Assembly: GCF_023734775.1 (NCBI RefSeq) | Contig: NZ_AP025732.1 | Coordinates: forward strand, 4,834,501-4,898,500 | Direction of reading: 5' to 3' | Length of the DNA: 64,000 nucleotides | Source of the DNA: Nostoc cf. commune SO-36 | GTDB taxonomy: Bacteria > Cyanobacteriota > Cyanobacteriia > Cyanobacteriales > Nostocaceae | In this document: piece after piece, positions 39,490 to 44,880 of the stretch | Layout: each line of letters starts with the position of its first letter | How positions within the stretch are numbered: position 1 is the first letter of the stretch | Made by a program: the position numbers and the translations under genes | The notes under the pieces: model-generated | Seen by the model: only the letters and a program-made list of their open reading frames with translations | What the model was told of the DNA's origin: nothing | The model's database searches: none

Positions 39490-41393
39490 ATGACCAAACG
39501 AGGGCTTCAAGCATCTACACAAGGTATCGCAAAAGCAAATCAAGCTTTGATCCGTAATAATTTAAATAAGACTGCTTTAGCAAGAGATTTAGGACTGTCT
39601 CGCGCAACAGTTACCAATTTCTTTCGTGTGATACCAATTGAACGCCTCAATTTTGAAGAAATTTGTAAAAGGCTCGGTCTAAATTGGCAAGAGATAGTTG
39701 ATATTCCAGTTTGCAAATCTCAAACAGAGGAACATCAAAATCCAACATCAGAAAATTATGATTTTGTGGGGCGTGAGGAAGCGATCGCACACCTCAACAA
39801 TTTTGTTAACGAAGGTGCAAAAGTTATCTTAATCCAGGCAGAGGGTGGTGTAGGCAAAACTAAGTTAGCTAAAAAATGGTTTGAGCGTCAAGGTTTAAAA
39901 ATGTTGGAACTAAAATTCCCAACGATGCTGGAGCAACTTAAAAGTGAGCTTCAGACTCAAAAAATCGGCTTTTTAATTAATAACTTAGAATCATCTCTTA
40001 TAAATGGTCAATTCATAGAACCACATCAAAGCGACTATGTAGAACTATTAAAATCGCTAGCTGATACTAGTGTAAAATCAATTACACTTATTACAAGTCG
40101 TGAGCCACTGGATGATGATAGATTAAAATCAGAGGATATCAAACCTTATCACTTGGAAGGTTTGAAAGTAGACGCATGGAAAGATTTTTTCAAAATTAAT
40201 AATATTAATATAGACATAAATGCTATTAGTGAAATGAACCAAGCCTATGGTGGAAATGCTGAGGCTATGTCTCTTATTTGTGCCGATATTAAGGGCGAGG
40301 AGTTTAAAAATGATTTAAATGCATATTGGCATAAATACAAAAACGATTTATTAGTCAATGCAAAGTTAGAGAATCTTGTTAAACGTCAGTTTGATAAATT
40401 TAAACGAGATAATGTCCAAGCCTATGGACTTTTATGTAGATTAGGATGTTACCGTTATCAATATATATCTGTAATATCTGAAAAAGGAATTTTTTGCTTA
40501 CTTTGGGATGAGCAAAATGAGCGAAATCAACGTCGAATTATCAGGGAGTTAAAAAACAGGGCTTTAGTGAAGTTTAGCAGTGAAGGATACTATTTATATG
40601 AAGTTATCCGCCAAGAAGCGATAGAAAGACTTAATTAACAGATGATTGGAAACAATCTCACGCTGAAGCCGGAATATTTTTATCTACATTAATATCTAAT
40701 AGCTACCAAATAATTATCCCAAAAATTAGTTTTACGAAAGTGAATGATATTGAAGAACAAATGTATCTAAATATAGAAAATGCAGAAACAGCAATTAAAC
40801 AAGAACTTACTAGACAGGAAACAATTGCCTTAGAAGTTGTTCATCATGCTATGGAATTTTATGAATTAGATTGTTTTCAAGAGTTAAGACAAAAACCAAA
40901 AGTATTAGATAATCCTTTCTTCAAAGCTATCAGAAATATGGTTTTTGAATATGTTGAGTGTTACAGTAACTTAGGCATAGTACTTTATAAATTTGCATTA
41001 AATACACAAGTATTAGGAATAATCGATGAAAGGGAAGGAAATTTTAAGGAAAGTACTAAGAAATTTGAGTATTACCAAAGAAGTTTGAAAGTAAGCCAAT
41101 GTTTTTTTAAAACAGCTTTGTTGATAGCGATAAGAGTTAAAGAGCATAAATTAATGATTAATTTACTTTGCTCTTTAGCTGAATGTCAGGATTTTACGGA
41201 AATGTTTTTACATCAAATTACAAAAAATAACGAAACTAAAGAAGCTTTTGATGAAATCAAAGTAAACTTAGAAAAAGTAGTACAAATATTTGATAATCTG
41301 TCGTTTGAGCAACAAATTGAGGAAGTAAAACAAGCAATTTATAGTCTAAGAATAAATGAAGAATATACAGTACATTCATACCAACATTTTTGA
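39490..41393 (+). pseudogene. STAND (NB-ARC-like) NTPase gene with a frameshift
   Basis: Segment 1 (39490-40638, 382 residues) has an N-terminal helix-turn-helix (about 15-70, SRATVTNFFRVIPIERLNFE) and an NB-ARC-type P-loop (GGVGKT, 119-124) with a sensor motif LITSREPL and a winged-helix end. It stops at 40638. In another frame DDWKQSHAEAGIFLSTLISN follows within a few bases and continues in the same frame through 40740-41393, a helical repeat-like domain. One missing T in AATTAACAG would restore TTAACAGAT in frame. STAND proteins are signal-triggered switches, some antiviral. Broken unless recoding occurs. Confidence 0.75.
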
Positions 41394-41538
41394 CTTAATT
41401 AGCAGAATTTTAACTCACAAGTTTGACAAATCCGATCGCACATCGAAGACACCCTACTCTTACCCATCGCTGAAATAGAAAAACGACCATTCAAAAATTA
41501 AATCGCCTTCTTCTTGGCGTGAGGTAAAAATCAAACAA

Positions 41539-41647
41539 AGGCGGGTGCGGGGATTGAACCCGCTAATCCCCACAATGGTGGAGACGTAACCGATAACCCT
41601 AAATTCTTCGTCCCCGAAAGGCAAGTTGCGAACAAGGATAACCCGCC
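41539..41647 (-). ncRNA. tRNA-like Y RNA (Yrl type), copy 1, D arm lost
   Basis: On the minus strand GGCGGGT pairs with ACCCGCC as a 7-bp acceptor stem, and GCGGG-TTCAATC-CCCGC is a perfect T arm. The D arm is absent. The insert retains GTTATCG and GACGAAGAATTTAGG, and its hairpin loop is UUCG (CCT-TTCG-GGG) where the other copies have GNRA. ATCC and GGAT can pair at the base of the insert. It lies 48 bp after the ro60 stop on the same strand, so it may be on the same transcript. Most divergent of the four. Confidence 0.7.
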
Positions 41648-41695
41648 ATGAAGTATGAAGGATAAAGTTTTTCATCCTTTACCCTTCAGCAATAT

Positions 41696-43297
41696 CTACA
41701 ATTCACCCGTAGCTAGCATCTGGATGATCCGAGGCGTACCTGGGTCGAACCCTGCCAAATCCCAAGACAGCGAATCTTCAGGATCTACCAAAGTAATTTG
41801 GTAAGGTGTCAAGGTGACATACACCGCCTTGACGTTAGGATTTACCTTTTTGCGGTACTCCTTCAGCGCTTGACTTGGGTGCTTATACCCAGCCCAGCTT
41901 TCCGAGTCAGTCCAAAAGCAGACAACATCCGCCTTGAACTTATTCTTAATCATCCATTCATAAGCTACAGATGCATCTGTTCCACCAAAGTTTTGGTTGC
42001 TAGCTTTGCGAACCGCAGAACTAAAACTATCTTTAGCAGTAATATCTAATTCACGGAATTCGGTAGCAAAGCCGCGAATCATGTAGTTTTTCTCTGCTTT
42101 TGCTGTTACTAATGCCATTGCGGTGGCAATTTCACAACAAGTCAGTCCCATATCCGCAACCAAATTACCCATAGAACCAGAAATGTCTACGGCGTGCATG
42201 AATACTTTACCTGTGGGTTGCACAACATCAAAAGACAGTTCAACCGCCTTTTCTAAAATGTCCACAATTCGAGGAACTGGATTCCAAGTTTTCTTACTGC
42301 GTCCTAATCTTCCACCAGATTCATAAGTTTTGAGTGCTTTCAAAACATCAATCGGATGGATGCGACCTTTACGCAGATGTTCTCTACGATTAAGAACTGC
42401 TTCCACTTGCAGCAAGTTGGCACTTTCATCAGCTCGCAACACACCCAGTTCAGTCAAAGAAACCAAGTTACGCAACATTGCACCTATTGGCATTTCCTGA
42501 AATAGCAACTGCCAAGCAAGCTGATCCATTTTGCCCACGGGTGCAGCCATTTCGTGGGTTAAGCGTCCTTGGGAAATAGCTTCATGGGTTTGAGTTGGAT
42601 TCCGCTTGAGCCACTCATACCACCAAATCTGCGCCAACGCCTCTGAAGGGATATCTGCTGGCAATTCTTCCCAGCCTCTAACTACCCACTCAAATAGTTG
42701 ACGGTGATTTTCTGTAGGCGGTTTGACATGGAATAACCGCAACGCATCTCGGTGAGAGAAGCCTTGACGCTGTTGATATTTCAACAGTTGATAAGCTAAC
42801 CCTTTGACATCTTCCCTTGAGAGCCAAGTTTTACCAGCTTCCCGTACTACTTTGCCAAATCCCCGCAGAGATTTGGTGTAATTCAACCATTCGTAGAAGT
42901 GGCTACCAGTGCGGACAACTTGCCCAAAGATTTCACCAAACGCCTGTTTTGCTTCTGGTGCTTTATCCATCGAGAGCAACACCAAAGCTAATATAGGCGC
43001 ACTGTTATTGATGGCGCGTCCATCGCTAGCATAGAGAATTTCTTCTGCTACACGGCTGGGATTTTCAGTAACAGCAAGTCTTACAACTGCCACAAAATCT
43101 TCAGTTAATTCCTGTTTTCCTGCGTAGTAAGTGCTTTTTGCTGTGCCAACCAAAAGACAGCGACGCAGCATTTTCCAAATGCCAGCATCAAACATAAAGC
43201 CGCCAGAACGTCCCTGAACCATTTCTGCTTCTCGTCCGGGGATAGGTTGATTTTGGGGTATAGTTGTTTTCTTTTTAGTGAAAAAATTGTAATTCAT
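41696..43297 (-). CDS. Ro60-family RNA-binding protein (TROVE + vWA)
   Basis: 533 residues. The N-terminal TROVE domain (about 20-340) is a ring of helical repeats that binds Y RNA on its outside and misfolded RNA ends in the hole; LYASDGRAINNSAPILALVL and GRIHPIDVLKALKTYESGGR are family landmarks. The vWA domain (about 360-533) has an intact MIDAS: D371-x-S373-x-S375, T440 in FGGTDAS and D464 in WTDSES. Bacterial Ro (Rsr) works with Y RNAs and exoribonucleases in RNA quality control and stress survival. GGGAG precedes the ATG. Three tRNA-like Y RNAs lie upstream and one downstream on the same strand. Confidence 0.95.
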   Translation of the reverse strand: MNYNFFTKKKTTIPQNQPIPGREAEMVQGRSGGFMFDAGIWKMLRRCLLVGTAKSTYYAGKQELTEDFVAVVRLAVTENPSRVAEEILYASDGRAINNSAPILALVLLSMDKAPEAKQAFGEIFGQVVRTGSHFYEWLNYTKSLRGFGKVVREAGKTWLSREDVKGLAYQLLKYQQRQGFSHRDALRLFHVKPPTENHRQLFEWVVRGWEELPADIPSEALAQIWWYEWLKRNPTQTHEAISQGRLTHEMAAPVGKMDQLAWQLLFQEMPIGAMLRNLVSLTELGVLRADESANLLQVEAVLNRREHLRKGRIHPIDVLKALKTYESGGRLGRSKKTWNPVPRIVDILEKAVELSFDVVQPTGKVFMHAVDISGSMGNLVADMGLTCCEIATAMALVTAKAEKNYMIRGFATEFRELDITAKDSFSSAVRKASNQNFGGTDASVAYEWMIKNKFKADVVCFWTDSESWAGYKHPSQALKEYRKKVNPNVKAVYVTLTPYQITLVDPEDSLSWDLAGFDPGTPRIIQMLATGEL

Positions 43298-43334
43298 CGT
43301 TTCATCTCCCGGCCCTTGGGGGCAAAAATGAAAG

Positions 43335-43460
43335 GTGGCAGAGCAGGAATCGAACCCGCGACATCCGGCTTAACAGGCGATAATCCTAATTCGTCGGCCT
43401 TTGCAGGCAAGGTGTGAACAAGGATGTTTTTCGGCGCTCTACCAACTGAGCTATCTGCCA
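43335..43460 (-). ncRNA. tRNA-like Y RNA (Yrl type), copy 2
   Basis: Minus strand. Acceptor TGGCAGA/TCTGCCA (7 bp), T8-A9, D arm GCTC-AGTTGGTA-GAGC and T arm GCGGG-TTCGATT-CCTGC follow tRNA rules exactly. The anticodon arm is replaced by a conserved insert: ACATCC pairs with GGATGT, then a GCCT-GCAA-AGGC hairpin (GNRA loop), then CCGACGAATTAGG and ATTATCG, which resemble the Y RNA Ro-binding core (GGUCCGA...GUUAUC). A leftover TGTTAA before GCCGG looks like a tRNA-Asn (GUU) anticodon loop. It ends 37 bp before the ro60 ATG. Confidence 0.85.
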
Positions 43461-43465
43461 CATGA

Positions 43466-43515
43466 AAATTTTGGATTTTGGATTTTGGATTTTAAATTTA
43501 ATCCAAAATTATTTG
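43466..43515. repeat. TTTTGGA heptad repeat between Y RNA genes
   Basis: Four tandem ATTTTGG words separate copies 2 and 3. Such heptads are common spacers in Nostocales. Confidence 0.75.
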
Positions 43516-43517
43516 GT

Positions 43518-43641
43518 GTAGCGGAGCGGGATTTGAACCCGCGACCTCTCGAACCCTAATCGATAACCCTAATTCGTCGGCCTTCGCAGGCAAGGGGTGA
43601 ACAAGGATGTTTAGCGCTCTACCAAACTGAGCTACCCGCCA
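43518..43641 (-). ncRNA. tRNA-like Y RNA (Yrl type), copy 3
   Basis: Minus strand. Acceptor TGGCGGG/TCCGCTA (7 pairs with two G-U), T-A, D arm GCTC-AGTTTGGTA-GAGC and a perfect T arm GCGGG-TTCAAAT-CCCGC. The insert carries ACATCCTTGTTCACC, a GCCT-GCGA-AGGC hairpin (GNRA), CCGACGAATTAGGG and TTATCG. The Ro-like core is identical to that of copy 2 over about 20 bases except one. The 3' edge of the insert (TTCGAG-AGGTC) still resembles an anticodon stem and variable loop. Confidence 0.85.
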
Positions 43642-43644
43642 CAT

Positions 43645-43680
43645 GAAAATTAAAAATTAAAAATTAAAAATTAAAAATTT
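43645..43680. repeat. AAATTAA heptad repeat between Y RNA genes
   Basis: Four to five tandem AAATTAA words separate copies 3 and 4. Confidence 0.75.
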
Positions 43681-43702
43681 AAATTTCAGCACTAGATTTG
43701 GT

Positions 43703-43827
43703 GTAGTGGAGCAGGAATCGAACCCGCGACCTCCCGCTTGGCAGGCGATAACCCTCAATTCGTCGGCCTTTTCAGGCAAGGGTTGAATAAGGATGTTTAG
43801 GCGCTCTAACCACTGAGCTACCCACCA
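43703..43827 (-). ncRNA. tRNA-like Y RNA (Yrl type), copy 4, first in the array
   Basis: Minus strand. Acceptor TGGTGGG/TCCACTA, T-A, D arm GCTC-AGTGGTTA-GAGC, T arm GCGGG-TTCGATT-CCTGC. The insert has a GCCT-GAAA-AGGC hairpin (GNRA) and the clearest outer helix, AACCCT/AGGGTT, enclosing CCGACGAATTG on its 3' side, then ATCG. CTGCCAAGCGGG-AGGTC after the insert looks like the 3' half of an anticodon arm with GCC (Gly-type). It is closest to the promoter at 43857-43885. Confidence 0.85.
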
Positions 43828-43856
43828 CATATCAAGTAAAGTTGACTTGTATTATT

Positions 43857-43885
43857 AATGTAGTATATGTATTATTTGTTGTCAA
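43857..43885 (-). promoter_or_regulatory. sigma70-type promoter of the Y RNA-ro60 array
   Basis: On the minus strand a perfect TTGACA (-35) is followed after 17 bp by TACATT (-10). Transcription would begin about 20 bp before copy 4. No other good promoter was seen between copy 4 and ro60, so the array and ro60 may be one transcription unit. Confidence 0.7.
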
Positions 43886-44043
43886 GGGGCTGGTAAGCTA
43901 ATTTATAGAGTTGTTGGTTGAGTTAAAAACCCTCTTATTTCCTCTGGTAAAAACTTTTGCGCGTAGTTTACCGCCGTAGGCATCGCAGTCCGATGTTAGA
44001 TAAGCAAAAGGGTAATAAGCCTATAACACCTACTGAAGATAGC

Positions 44044-44147
44044 TTTTGCCAATAAATTTGCCGCAACTTTGCCAAAATATACAAAAAAGTGCCCCAATTT
44101 TTGCCAATATAGATAGTATTATTTCCCAAAATTCACTTGGCAAAAAT
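44044..44147. promoter_or_regulatory. cluster of TTGCC(AA) words
   Basis: TTGCC occurs at 44046, 44058, 44069 and 44101, three with AA after it, and once inverted (GGCAA at 44139). The first three are one helical turn apart (12 and 11 bp). They lie in the upstream region of the membrane-HTH gene at 44152 and may be binding sites for a regulator, perhaps that protein itself. Confidence 0.4.
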
Positions 44148-44151
44148 CGGC

Positions 44152-44880
44152 ATGAGTGAAAAACCCATAGAAGATAACGGCAAGGCTTTTCTCGTTCTAC
44201 TTTTGCCCATCTCGTTTTTGATTATTTTCCTAGTTACCACTTGGAGAATTTTACTGGCACTAATTGTTCTGGTAATTGGCTTCAAGCTTTGGCAGGAATA
44301 TCAATGGCAACAGTGGACTCATCGAGTTAACCCAATTTTTCATCAGTTAGTTCGCGAAAATCAGGGCAGACTTACGCCAATGGACTTGGCAATTAAGGGC
44401 AATTTTCCGGGAACAACGGCAAAACGCTACTTGGATAGTAAAGCCTCGGAATTTGGAGCTAGTATAGTCAACTCTGAAGATGCAGGGCAGTCTTATTACT
44501 TTATAACTGCCAGTATTCTCGGTAATATTCTTGATAGTAGTGAACCTGTTAAAGAACTTCCGGCTCAACCAGTTACTAAAACTGCGCGATCGCTCCTAGC
44601 ATCACCACCACCACCAATCCCACAGGAGGAAGCAGAAACCGAATCACCACCACAGCCAACCCATGAGCAAGCTAAACGATCGCTGGAAAAACAGTTAATT
44701 TTTGGCTCTCTCATCCAATCTGAACTTGCTAAACGGTTAAATGTCTATTCCAGTACGGTTTATAAACGGCGAAATGATCCAGAGTTTCCTGAATGGAGTC
44801 GCAGCAAAGACCCTGATGGTATTGCCTGGTCATACTCGGAAAAAATTAAGGAGTTTTTCCCAGTGGATGAAGAAGGGTAA
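44152..44880 (+). CDS. membrane protein with C-terminal HTH-like region
   Basis: 242 residues from ATG 44152; a TTG five codons earlier is open but less likely. Two hydrophobic segments (about 11-30 and 34-48) anchor the N-terminus. A basic region follows (QWTHRVNPIFHQLVRENQGR), then a Pro-rich linker (about 140-170) and a segment IQSELAKRLNVYSSTVYKRR that looks like a helix-turn-helix. Possibly a membrane-tethered DNA-binding protein. It is divergent from the Y RNA-ro60 array. Family not named. Confidence 0.7.
   Translation: MSEKPIEDNGKAFLVLLLPISFLIIFLVTTWRILLALIVLVIGFKLWQEYQWQQWTHRVNPIFHQLVRENQGRLTPMDLAIKGNFPGTTAKRYLDSKASEFGASIVNSEDAGQSYYFITASILGNILDSSEPVKELPAQPVTKTARSLLASPPPPIPQEEAETESPPQPTHEQAKRSLEKQLIFGSLIQSELAKRLNVYSSTVYKRRNDPEFPEWSRSKDPDGIAWSYSEKIKEFFPVDEEG

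Follow-up and report, generated by a model that had tools for sequence, protein, structure and literature searches.

The 64,000-nucleotide (nt) stretch of the Nostoc cf. commune SO-36 genome analysed here (the window; contig NZ_AP025732.1, positions 4,834,501 to 4,898,500) carries on its minus strand a gene for Ro60, a protein of RNA quality control, flanked by four predicted RNAs, R1 to R4, that share a conserved Ro60-docking core (Table 1). We judge it likely, with a probability of about 0.8, that this is a cyanobacterial Ro60 ribonucleoprotein (RNP) locus with four docking-core RNAs, of which R1 to R3 have their modules in the order of a transfer RNA (tRNA), with predicted processing of the tRNA type and predicted docking on Ro60. 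In these three the sequence places a closed docking hairpin between the D arm and the anticodon-arm remains of an otherwise complete tRNA body, the whole running free acceptor, D arm, docking hairpin, anticodon-loop-like remnant, T arm, acceptor. The bacterial Y RNA family YrlA (Rfam RF02553; Salmonella structure 6CU1) resembles the window RNAs in lying beside ro60, in its docking core and in a tRNA-like body of T arm, acceptor helix and D arm (both the body and the proximity to ro60 are described in sections of PMC8394870 and PMC11472068), but its order is docking strand, T arm, closed acceptor, D arm, docking strand. In YrlA the ends of the RNA lie in the docking stem, whereas in the window RNAs the docking hairpin is closed and the acceptor end is free, CCA being encoded in R1 and R2, and their scores fall under the YrlA family cut-off. 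The association of Ro60 with Y RNAs and the tRNA likeness of YrlA are already known, and the tRNA-order topology is the new point. We found no description of tRNA-order or cyanobacterial Y RNAs in the open literature searched, which covers the Y RNA field in part; priority is unsure, and the tRNA-order form may already have been noticed. A 2014 survey reportedly placed Y RNAs in more than 250 species.

Table 1. Features of the ro60 locus, in window coordinates; bits are scores with our tRNA-order covariance model.
Feature	Position	Strand	Basis and details
R1, predicted tRNA-order Y RNA	43828-43699	minus	sequence reading; model 113.9 bits; covariation
R2, predicted tRNA-order Y RNA	43642-43514	minus	layout like R1, 7-nt loop TTAGGGT, encoded ACCA end; model 109.8 bits
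R3, predicted tRNA-order Y RNA	43461-43335	minus	layout like R1, CTGTTAA after docking hairpin, without encoded CCA; model 116.9 bits
R4, predicted variant without D arm	41647-41540	minus	7-bp acceptor, docking module, extra hairpin, T arm; model 40.0 bits
Predicted Ro60-docking hairpin of R1	43746-43795 (bounds approximate)	minus	CATCCTTATTC...CTTGCCT-GAAA-AGGCCGACGAATTGAGGGTTATCG; sequence and conserved columns of alignment A2
ro60 / rsr gene	43297-41696	minus	533 amino acids; TROVE and vWA domain with DxSxS motif
Putative sigma-70-like promoter TTGACA-17-TACATT	43885-43857	minus	28 nt before R1 5' end; weak

Along the minus strand the locus reads promoter-like site, R1, R2, R3, ro60, R4. 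R1 is laid out as an 8-base-pair (bp) acceptor (counting G-1:C73), D arm, docking hairpin, anticodon-loop-like CTGCCAA, T arm and an encoded ACCA end. An initial annotation of this DNA had described three upstream RNAs with acceptor stem, T8-A9, D arm, T arm and a shared insert, CCGACGAA...TTATCG; all of these are present in R1 to R3, and the structure covaries in relatives. Its fourth RNA, downstream of ro60, is there with acceptor, insert and T arm, but has no D arm. That annotation missed this absence, as it did the tRNA order (a circular permutation of YrlA) and the anticodon-loop-like 7-mer that follows the insert in R1 and R3. Its cyanobacterial Ro60-Yrl RNP locus stands as tRNA-shaped, Y-like RNAs with a docking core beside ro60, here and in relatives, in an order different from that of Rfam YrlA. 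The docking core is common to R1, R2, R3 and R4 and takes the form GGCCGA...GGTTATC opposite CTTGCC, both in the window RNAs and in the conserved columns of two alignments (A2 and A3, below). It resembles the core of animal Y RNAs. With one mismatch allowed, the core 12-mer is found at 10 places in the genome; the 3 exact ones are all in the window, and the remaining 7 are at chance level (reversed control 17). The spacers between the RNAs (43462-43513 and 43643-43698) are AT-rich short repeats, that between R2 and R3 being capable of forming a hairpin (-8.8 kcal/mol, z -2.5).

The gene flanked by these RNAs, which the initial annotation had rightly called a minus-strand TROVE plus vWA gene, encodes a protein whose sequence identifies it as Ro60 along its whole length. 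Pfam finds vWA_Ro60 (E 3.4e-38) and TROVE (3.1e-18), and full-length matches include Deinococcus Rsr (2nvo, E 1e-72) and vertebrate Ro60 (E 1.6e-71 and 5.4e-71). In the alignment K173, R177 and H190 fall opposite Xenopus K170, R174 and H187, which we take to be Y RNA-contact residues. The genome's two TROVE matches are both fragments of this one gene, and a search of viral contigs with the protein gave 1 locus. Two solved ‘TROVE domain-containing proteins’ of about 500 amino acids, 9l5y and 9kop, are remote matches (E ~7e-10).

The tRNA-order structure was examined by covariation in alignment A2, 58 tRNA-order RNAs including R1 to R3 and selected partly by acceptor pairing and core; helix 1 is favoured here because acceptor pairing was a criterion for the rows. 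Of the cells that make up the 28-pair structure 92.2% keep the pairing, and 25 pairs, distributed over all six helices, show double-sided changes. These number 363, against 103.6 in shuffles (none of 500 as high) and 69-93 when the structure is slid along the alignment, and the covariation is 0.637 against 0.206 and 0.11-0.19, respectively; the weakest helix, kept in 71.3%, is the short one at the anticodon base. A covariance model built from A2 finds R1 to R3 at 109.8-116.9 bits, all three having served among the 58 rows used to train it. The same model gives plain tRNAs about 30-60 bits, and the score of R4 is therefore no evidence alone. The initial annotation had proposed a Y RNA covariance model as a check, and there the outcome is divided: our own model matches the RNAs, while Rfam YrlA, relaxed, gives only 32.7 bits (43401-43570) and 29.9 bits (43584-43770) against a cut-off of 69, each match spanning two neighbouring copies. 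At Rfam gathering thresholds and with ARAGORN the window yields no match of any kind, whether tRNA, transfer-messenger RNA (tmRNA) or YrlA, the best tmRNA score (RF00023) being 20.3 bits against a cut-off of 47. The YrlA cut-off is narrow, since nine chosen ro60 loci (six permuted, three tRNA-order) also gave no match at it; the tRNA cut-off (RF00005) is reached by one tRNA-order RNA each in loci L087, L099 and L102.

Matches that straddle two copies raise the question of whether the array instead makes ordinary permuted YrlA-type RNAs, each joining the 3' half of a copy to the 5' half of the copy after it. Besides the two YrlA matches, our own model of permuted RNAs (A3, 27 RNAs) speaks for this with 77.1 bits at 43401-43585, again across copies and below the tRNA-order model on R1 to R3. 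We nevertheless consider it unlikely. It requires acceptor loops of about 60 nt, whereas those of the permuted RNAs listed are 3-26 nt; the tRNA-order model, though trained on such RNAs including these, gives each copy 110-117 bits; R4 stands alone, as does the single RNA found by regular expression at nine loci; and acceptor strands pair better within their own copy (6.99 of 7) than with the neighbouring copy (6.06, 51 neighbours). L109, L105 and L121, all from other phyla, show a single tRNA-order match apiece (E up to 1e-4) and no permuted match among those listed, and permuted arrays score the other way (e.g. L142, 114.8 bits permuted against 36.7 tRNA order). The permuted model has 100 matches in 69 stretches from the phylum, and we took those in the main cyanobacterial clade to be probable readings across neighbouring copies.

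Within the window's genus the occurrence of the docking core tracks that of ro60. Counts, which include the window's own genome and locus, refer to a 59-genome set of relatives and a 386-genome set of the phylum, with Ro60 matches in 36 and 41 genomes, respectively. A strict docking-core pattern occurs at 68 places in 28 of the 59, all 28 having ro60 and belonging to the window's genus, while the reversed pattern occurs at none. Within that genus ro60 is present in 30 of 35 genomes, and the pattern in 28 of the 30 with ro60 and in 0 of the 5 without (one of which is only 72% complete). All but one of the 68 places lie no more than 0.7 kb upstream of ro60, the remaining one being on another contig of genome G033, whose ro60 contig begins there. 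A looser expression for core and T arm finds 140 RNAs in 53 of the 66 ro60 stretches of the phylum, window included; the initial annotation had suggested looking for the array beside ro60 in relatives. The copy number, which had been called unusually high, is not: four or five RNAs occur in 12 of the 53 stretches with the full motif (one RNA in 9, two in 15, three in 17, four in 10, five in 2).

A D arm was matched in 102 of these 140 RNAs, and 32 of the other 38 are R4-type, downstream of ro60. With acceptor strands taken at a fixed offset, so that pairing was not selected, 100 of the 102 pair 7/7 (G-T counted). The mean is 6.94/7; dealing the strands out among copies lowers it to 6.23 (200 deals, maximum 6.34), a background that is high because acceptors resemble one another within the group. 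The spacing to ro60 is also shared. R3 ends 37 nt before the ro60 ATG, as the last upstream RNA does in 34 of 53 loci, and R4 starts 48 nt past the stop codon, a distance found in 16 of 32 loci (41 to 57 nt in the others listed). R4-type RNAs, which have an extra hairpin before the T arm and no D arm, occupy a similar place after the stop codon in 32 loci, window included. These data bear on the view that the elements are decayed tRNA genes with an insertion, near ro60 by chance. Their tRNA arms and anticodon-loop-like remnants do agree with it, but the double-sided changes in all six helices, the nearly invariant docking-core columns, the tracking of ro60 within a genus and the common spacing make it highly improbable.

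Beyond the arms, the tRNA-order RNAs retain other marks of a tRNA. CCA is encoded in 69 of 141 cyanobacterial examples (17 at N73-CCA, 52 one base later; 49 of 59 loci) and in 7 of 36 others, whereas among 29 host tRNAs, drawn from the best 30 of 44 tRNA matches and read by eye, one (Tyr) encodes it at the standard place and one (Gly-GCC) one base later. A 7-mer YTNNNAR directly after TTATC is present in 78 of 178 tRNA-order RNAs (maximum 18 in 50 shuffles), and hairpins of at least 4 bp with a 7-nt loop in 31 of 85 non-redundant segments (maximum 20 in 50 shuffles), other loop sizes showing no excess. In the permuted segments (n=42) the hairpin excess after TTATC appears at loop sizes 5, 6 and 7, and the anticodon-loop reading is therefore weaker for that class. 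We read the 7-nt-loop element as what probably remains of a tRNA anticodon arm into whose 5' side the docking hairpin has been inserted. Among R3-type RNAs of related genomes the triplet at 34-36 varies (CTT, GTT, GAT, TTT), so it is unlikely to decode. Taken together, tRNA order, anticodon-loop remnants and a CCA encoded in about half of the cyanobacterial cases, against 1 of 29 sampled host tRNAs, point to descent from tRNA. Such descent would bear on the question of why Y RNAs mimic tRNA. Derivation of each RNA from one particular host tRNA was dropped, as none of the 29 is close when compared by eye, although loop remnants such as GCC, CTT, GTT, TTT, CAT, ATT and GAT, among others, leave room for a single-host-tRNA origin. 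Imitation of tRNA-His by the acceptor (G-1:C73 followed by CCA) was likewise rejected, since it fits at most the N73-CCA class of 17/141, 52/141 having one further base and 72/141 no CCA.

YrlA itself has been described as a tRNA permutation: in the Salmonella Y RNA the relationship is one of circular permutation in three dimensions (as stated in part of PMC11472068), and the Rfam YrlA structure line runs T arm, closed acceptor, D arm. To class RNAs across 155 loci we used the acceptor partner and the position of the D arm relative to the T arm, leaving the core aside. This gave 186 tRNA-order RNAs (179 passing a loose core expression, 87 loci) and 69 permuted ones (64 passing, 36 loci), the latter with their termini within the docking stem and the acceptor closed. 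Of the seven tRNA-order candidates without the core, inspection by eye suggests that five are real (L111, L153), whereas one pairs by chance (L089, 714) and one arises where true tRNAs overlap (L164); five of the 69 permuted candidates also lack it. Nine locus labels were set by hand from model matches, L063, L066, L053, L055 and L032 as tRNA order and L071, L074, L152 and L085 as permuted, L085 being the same contig as L071, which also carries a tRNA-order RNA; L154 was classed as permuted on score (94.8 against 62.1 bits). Many permuted RNAs adjoin ro60 in bacteria and phages, and they include those of Gordonia and Microbacterium phages and of a Bosea plasmid. The named ro60 loci, the best 80 of 444 matches, divide into 26 with tRNA order, 33 permuted, 1 with both (L089, Anaerolineae) and 20 with neither found. 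At L089 the tRNA-order RNA lies at 270-476 and the permuted RNA at 2275-2406.

The relationship between the forms was then assessed by rotation, with 30 cyanobacterial tRNA-order RNAs as profile and 33 permuted RNAs of named prokaryote records as target. Of the 69 permuted rows 10 were lost to the trimming rule, 37 of the other 59 were non-redundant and 33 of these were used (L042, L100 and both L165 rows were removed by hand). Unrotated, the permuted RNAs match with a median of 18.3 bits over a median of 45% of the model; with the acceptor loop cut out and the docking strands joined, the medians rise to 37.0 bits and 88% (range 10.8-56.5 bits). In 30 of 33 the acceptor loop is the best of all cut places at 10-nt steps, and one shuffle of each permuted RNA gave no match. 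This test leads us to regard the two predicted forms as one modular RNA in two circular permutations; rearrangement of this kind around the tRNA fold is familiar from circularly permuted tRNA genes. N-CCA immediately follows the 3' strand of the acceptor, within the closed loop, in 13 of 64 permuted RNAs (about 1 expected by chance, relatedness uncorrected) and may be left over from a tRNA end. Some cyanobacterial loci show a third arrangement, a tRNA body in which the docking module itself is rotated, with the CCCTT strand after TTATC rather than before CTTGCC; a strict expression finds it at 10 places (L012 (795), L026, L027, L030, L033, L043, L044, L058, L069, L080:2821-2947) and not in the window's locus.

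Module order has apparently switched several times in the Ro60 tree. A 116-row tree (LG+G4, quick search, 42 of 113 forks weak) needs 8 changes between tRNA-order and permuted labels. A second tree of 62 rows (37 tRNA order, 25 permuted; same simple model), with L040 relabelled as tRNA order and with loci labelled both or unlabelled, near-copies and L074, L077, L079, L085, L086, L163 and L165 omitted, needs 5, of which at least 4 are forced by strong branches. A single change, which would put every tRNA-order row on the same side of some branch, is rejected (approximately unbiased test, p-AU 4e-7). Outside cyanobacteria the tRNA order is found in Chloroflexota, Armatimonadota, Abditibacteriota, Gemmatimonadota, Planctomycetota, Myxococcota, Thermodesulfobacteriota, Pseudomonadota and Actinomycetota, as assigned from record titles, many of them those of metagenome bins. 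In the main cyanobacterial Ro60 clade the only permuted calls by the script are tandem tRNA-order copies in L040 and L042, the two copies of L040 having acceptor strands only 8 nt apart; spacers between neighbouring tRNA-order copies are otherwise 17-346 nt (median 56, 75 spacers). Such a tandem array could be read in both orders by shifting the register of the RNA ends, and a shift of this kind would take an RNA from one form to the other. In the window's family, the genome that holds locus L074 combines a distant Ro60 (32% identical) with a permuted Y RNA beside 17 tRNA genes, possibly on a mobile element.

A wider reading may be put on these results, to which we give somewhat less than an even chance: two natural circular permutations of one modular tRNA-like Y RNA would exist in many phyla and interconvert by shifted ends in tandem arrays, and the tRNA-order form would be a true descendant of tRNA, which tRNA-processing enzymes release from the ro60 transcript with its acceptor end mature and on which enzymes of CCA addition, aminoacylation or tRNA repair could then act. 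A repeatedly switched pair of permutations would be an unusual natural change of RNA topology with a simple route through tandem arrays, and would suggest how such Y RNAs arise and change form.

At the window's locus the common spacings and the lack of a terminator-like site would fit one transcript, R1-R2-R3-ro60-R4, punctuated by tRNA-like units. RNase P would cut 5' of each acceptor stem and tRNA 3' processing would act on the other side. Each released RNA would dock through its hairpin on the exterior of the Ro60 ring, shutting it to other RNAs or tethering it, and its tRNA-like body would serve as a binding site for enzymes that handle tRNA or for an exonuclease such as PNPase. The precedent is the Deinococcus radiodurans Rsr-Y RNA-PNPase complex (RYPER), in which the Y RNA serves both as a tether between Rsr and PNPase and as a gate (according to portions of PMC7790460, PMC4726728 and PMC8394870); that system has in common with the window a Ro60 orthologue (E 1e-72) and a locus-linked Y-like RNA. 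We take the RNP to be a stress RNP whose RNA may close or tether the Ro60 ring, produced probably under translation stress. In the relevant section of PMC6424891, transcripts of a TROVE gene of the cyanobacterium Chlorogloeopsis fritschii PCC 9212 ‘increased dramatically’ with erythromycin, ‘for unknown reasons’, and an excerpt of PMC11423583 gives log2 increases of 4.5 for this gene and 3.5 for RtcB in coculture under far-red light. The erythromycin response, like the common distances to the start and stop codons of ro60, would also suit R3 and R4 as mainly cis-acting tRNA-like elements of the ro60 mRNA, serving processing or translation-stress sensing, with a trans Y RNA role secondary. As R1 and R2 lie farther off, copy number varies and the docking core, alike in R1 to R4, would be superfluous in a pure processing signal, we think this rather unlikely, and prefer RNAs that would be released and dock on Ro60.

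Several observations weigh against the preferred reading. Single-RNA folding energies fail to set the RNAs apart from shuffles (z -1.45, -0.86, -1.03 and -2.01 for R1, R2, R3 and R4). The 8-bp acceptor, with G-1:C73 in 116 of 141 cyanobacterial tRNA-order RNAs and 13 of 36 others, may not suit every tRNA enzyme, and CCA is not encoded in R3, R4, 72 of the 141 cyanobacterial and 29 of the 36 other RNAs. The strict core pattern is found in none of the 6 other-genus genomes with ro60 in the set of relatives, so that its absence from the 18 of other genera that lack ro60 is uninformative about the link. The TTGACA-17-TACATT promoter of the initial annotation is present, but the region has 6 promoter-like sites where shuffles lead one to expect 5.0, and 0 terminator-like sites in 41300-44200 against 3.3 in shuffles, itself a weak result. 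The C. fritschii gene is only a candidate parallel, and no RtcB is found in the window, that of the genome being about 0.3 Mb away. The latter (G000:C1:5174855-5176912) matches in two pieces some 900 bases apart within one frame of 724 amino acids, possibly an intein-like in-frame insertion.

The RNAs also invite comparison with two other systems built on a tRNA body. They resemble tmRNA in combining such a body with a large insert, but differ in scoring below its cut-off and in receiving no ARAGORN tmRNA call. Tested against tRNAs themselves, they share the acceptor, D and T arms, the free acceptor end and the anticodon-loop-like remnant, but have an inserted docking hairpin, usually an 8-bp acceptor and a variable 34-36 triplet, and receive no ARAGORN or RF00005 call in the window. 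These differences explain to annotators why Rfam YrlA and tRNA finders miss them. The tRNA-order form offers a handle on which tRNA enzymes meet Y RNAs, and Picosynechococcus PCC 7002 (plasmid pAQ7, L080), a strain of a genus whose Ro60 is 67-68% identical to that of the window, offers a test system, with such RNAs at 2541-2668, 2689-2799 and 2821-2947 of L080. Among the named loci (e.g. L140, L150, L091, L092), and also at L071 and L074, ro60 often lies within tRNA gene arrays: 24 of the 80 named loci (about 6 kb each) have at least 3 ARAGORN calls, and the 484 kb in all contain 264 calls, some possibly Y RNAs, with 24 in each of two Polyangium genomes.

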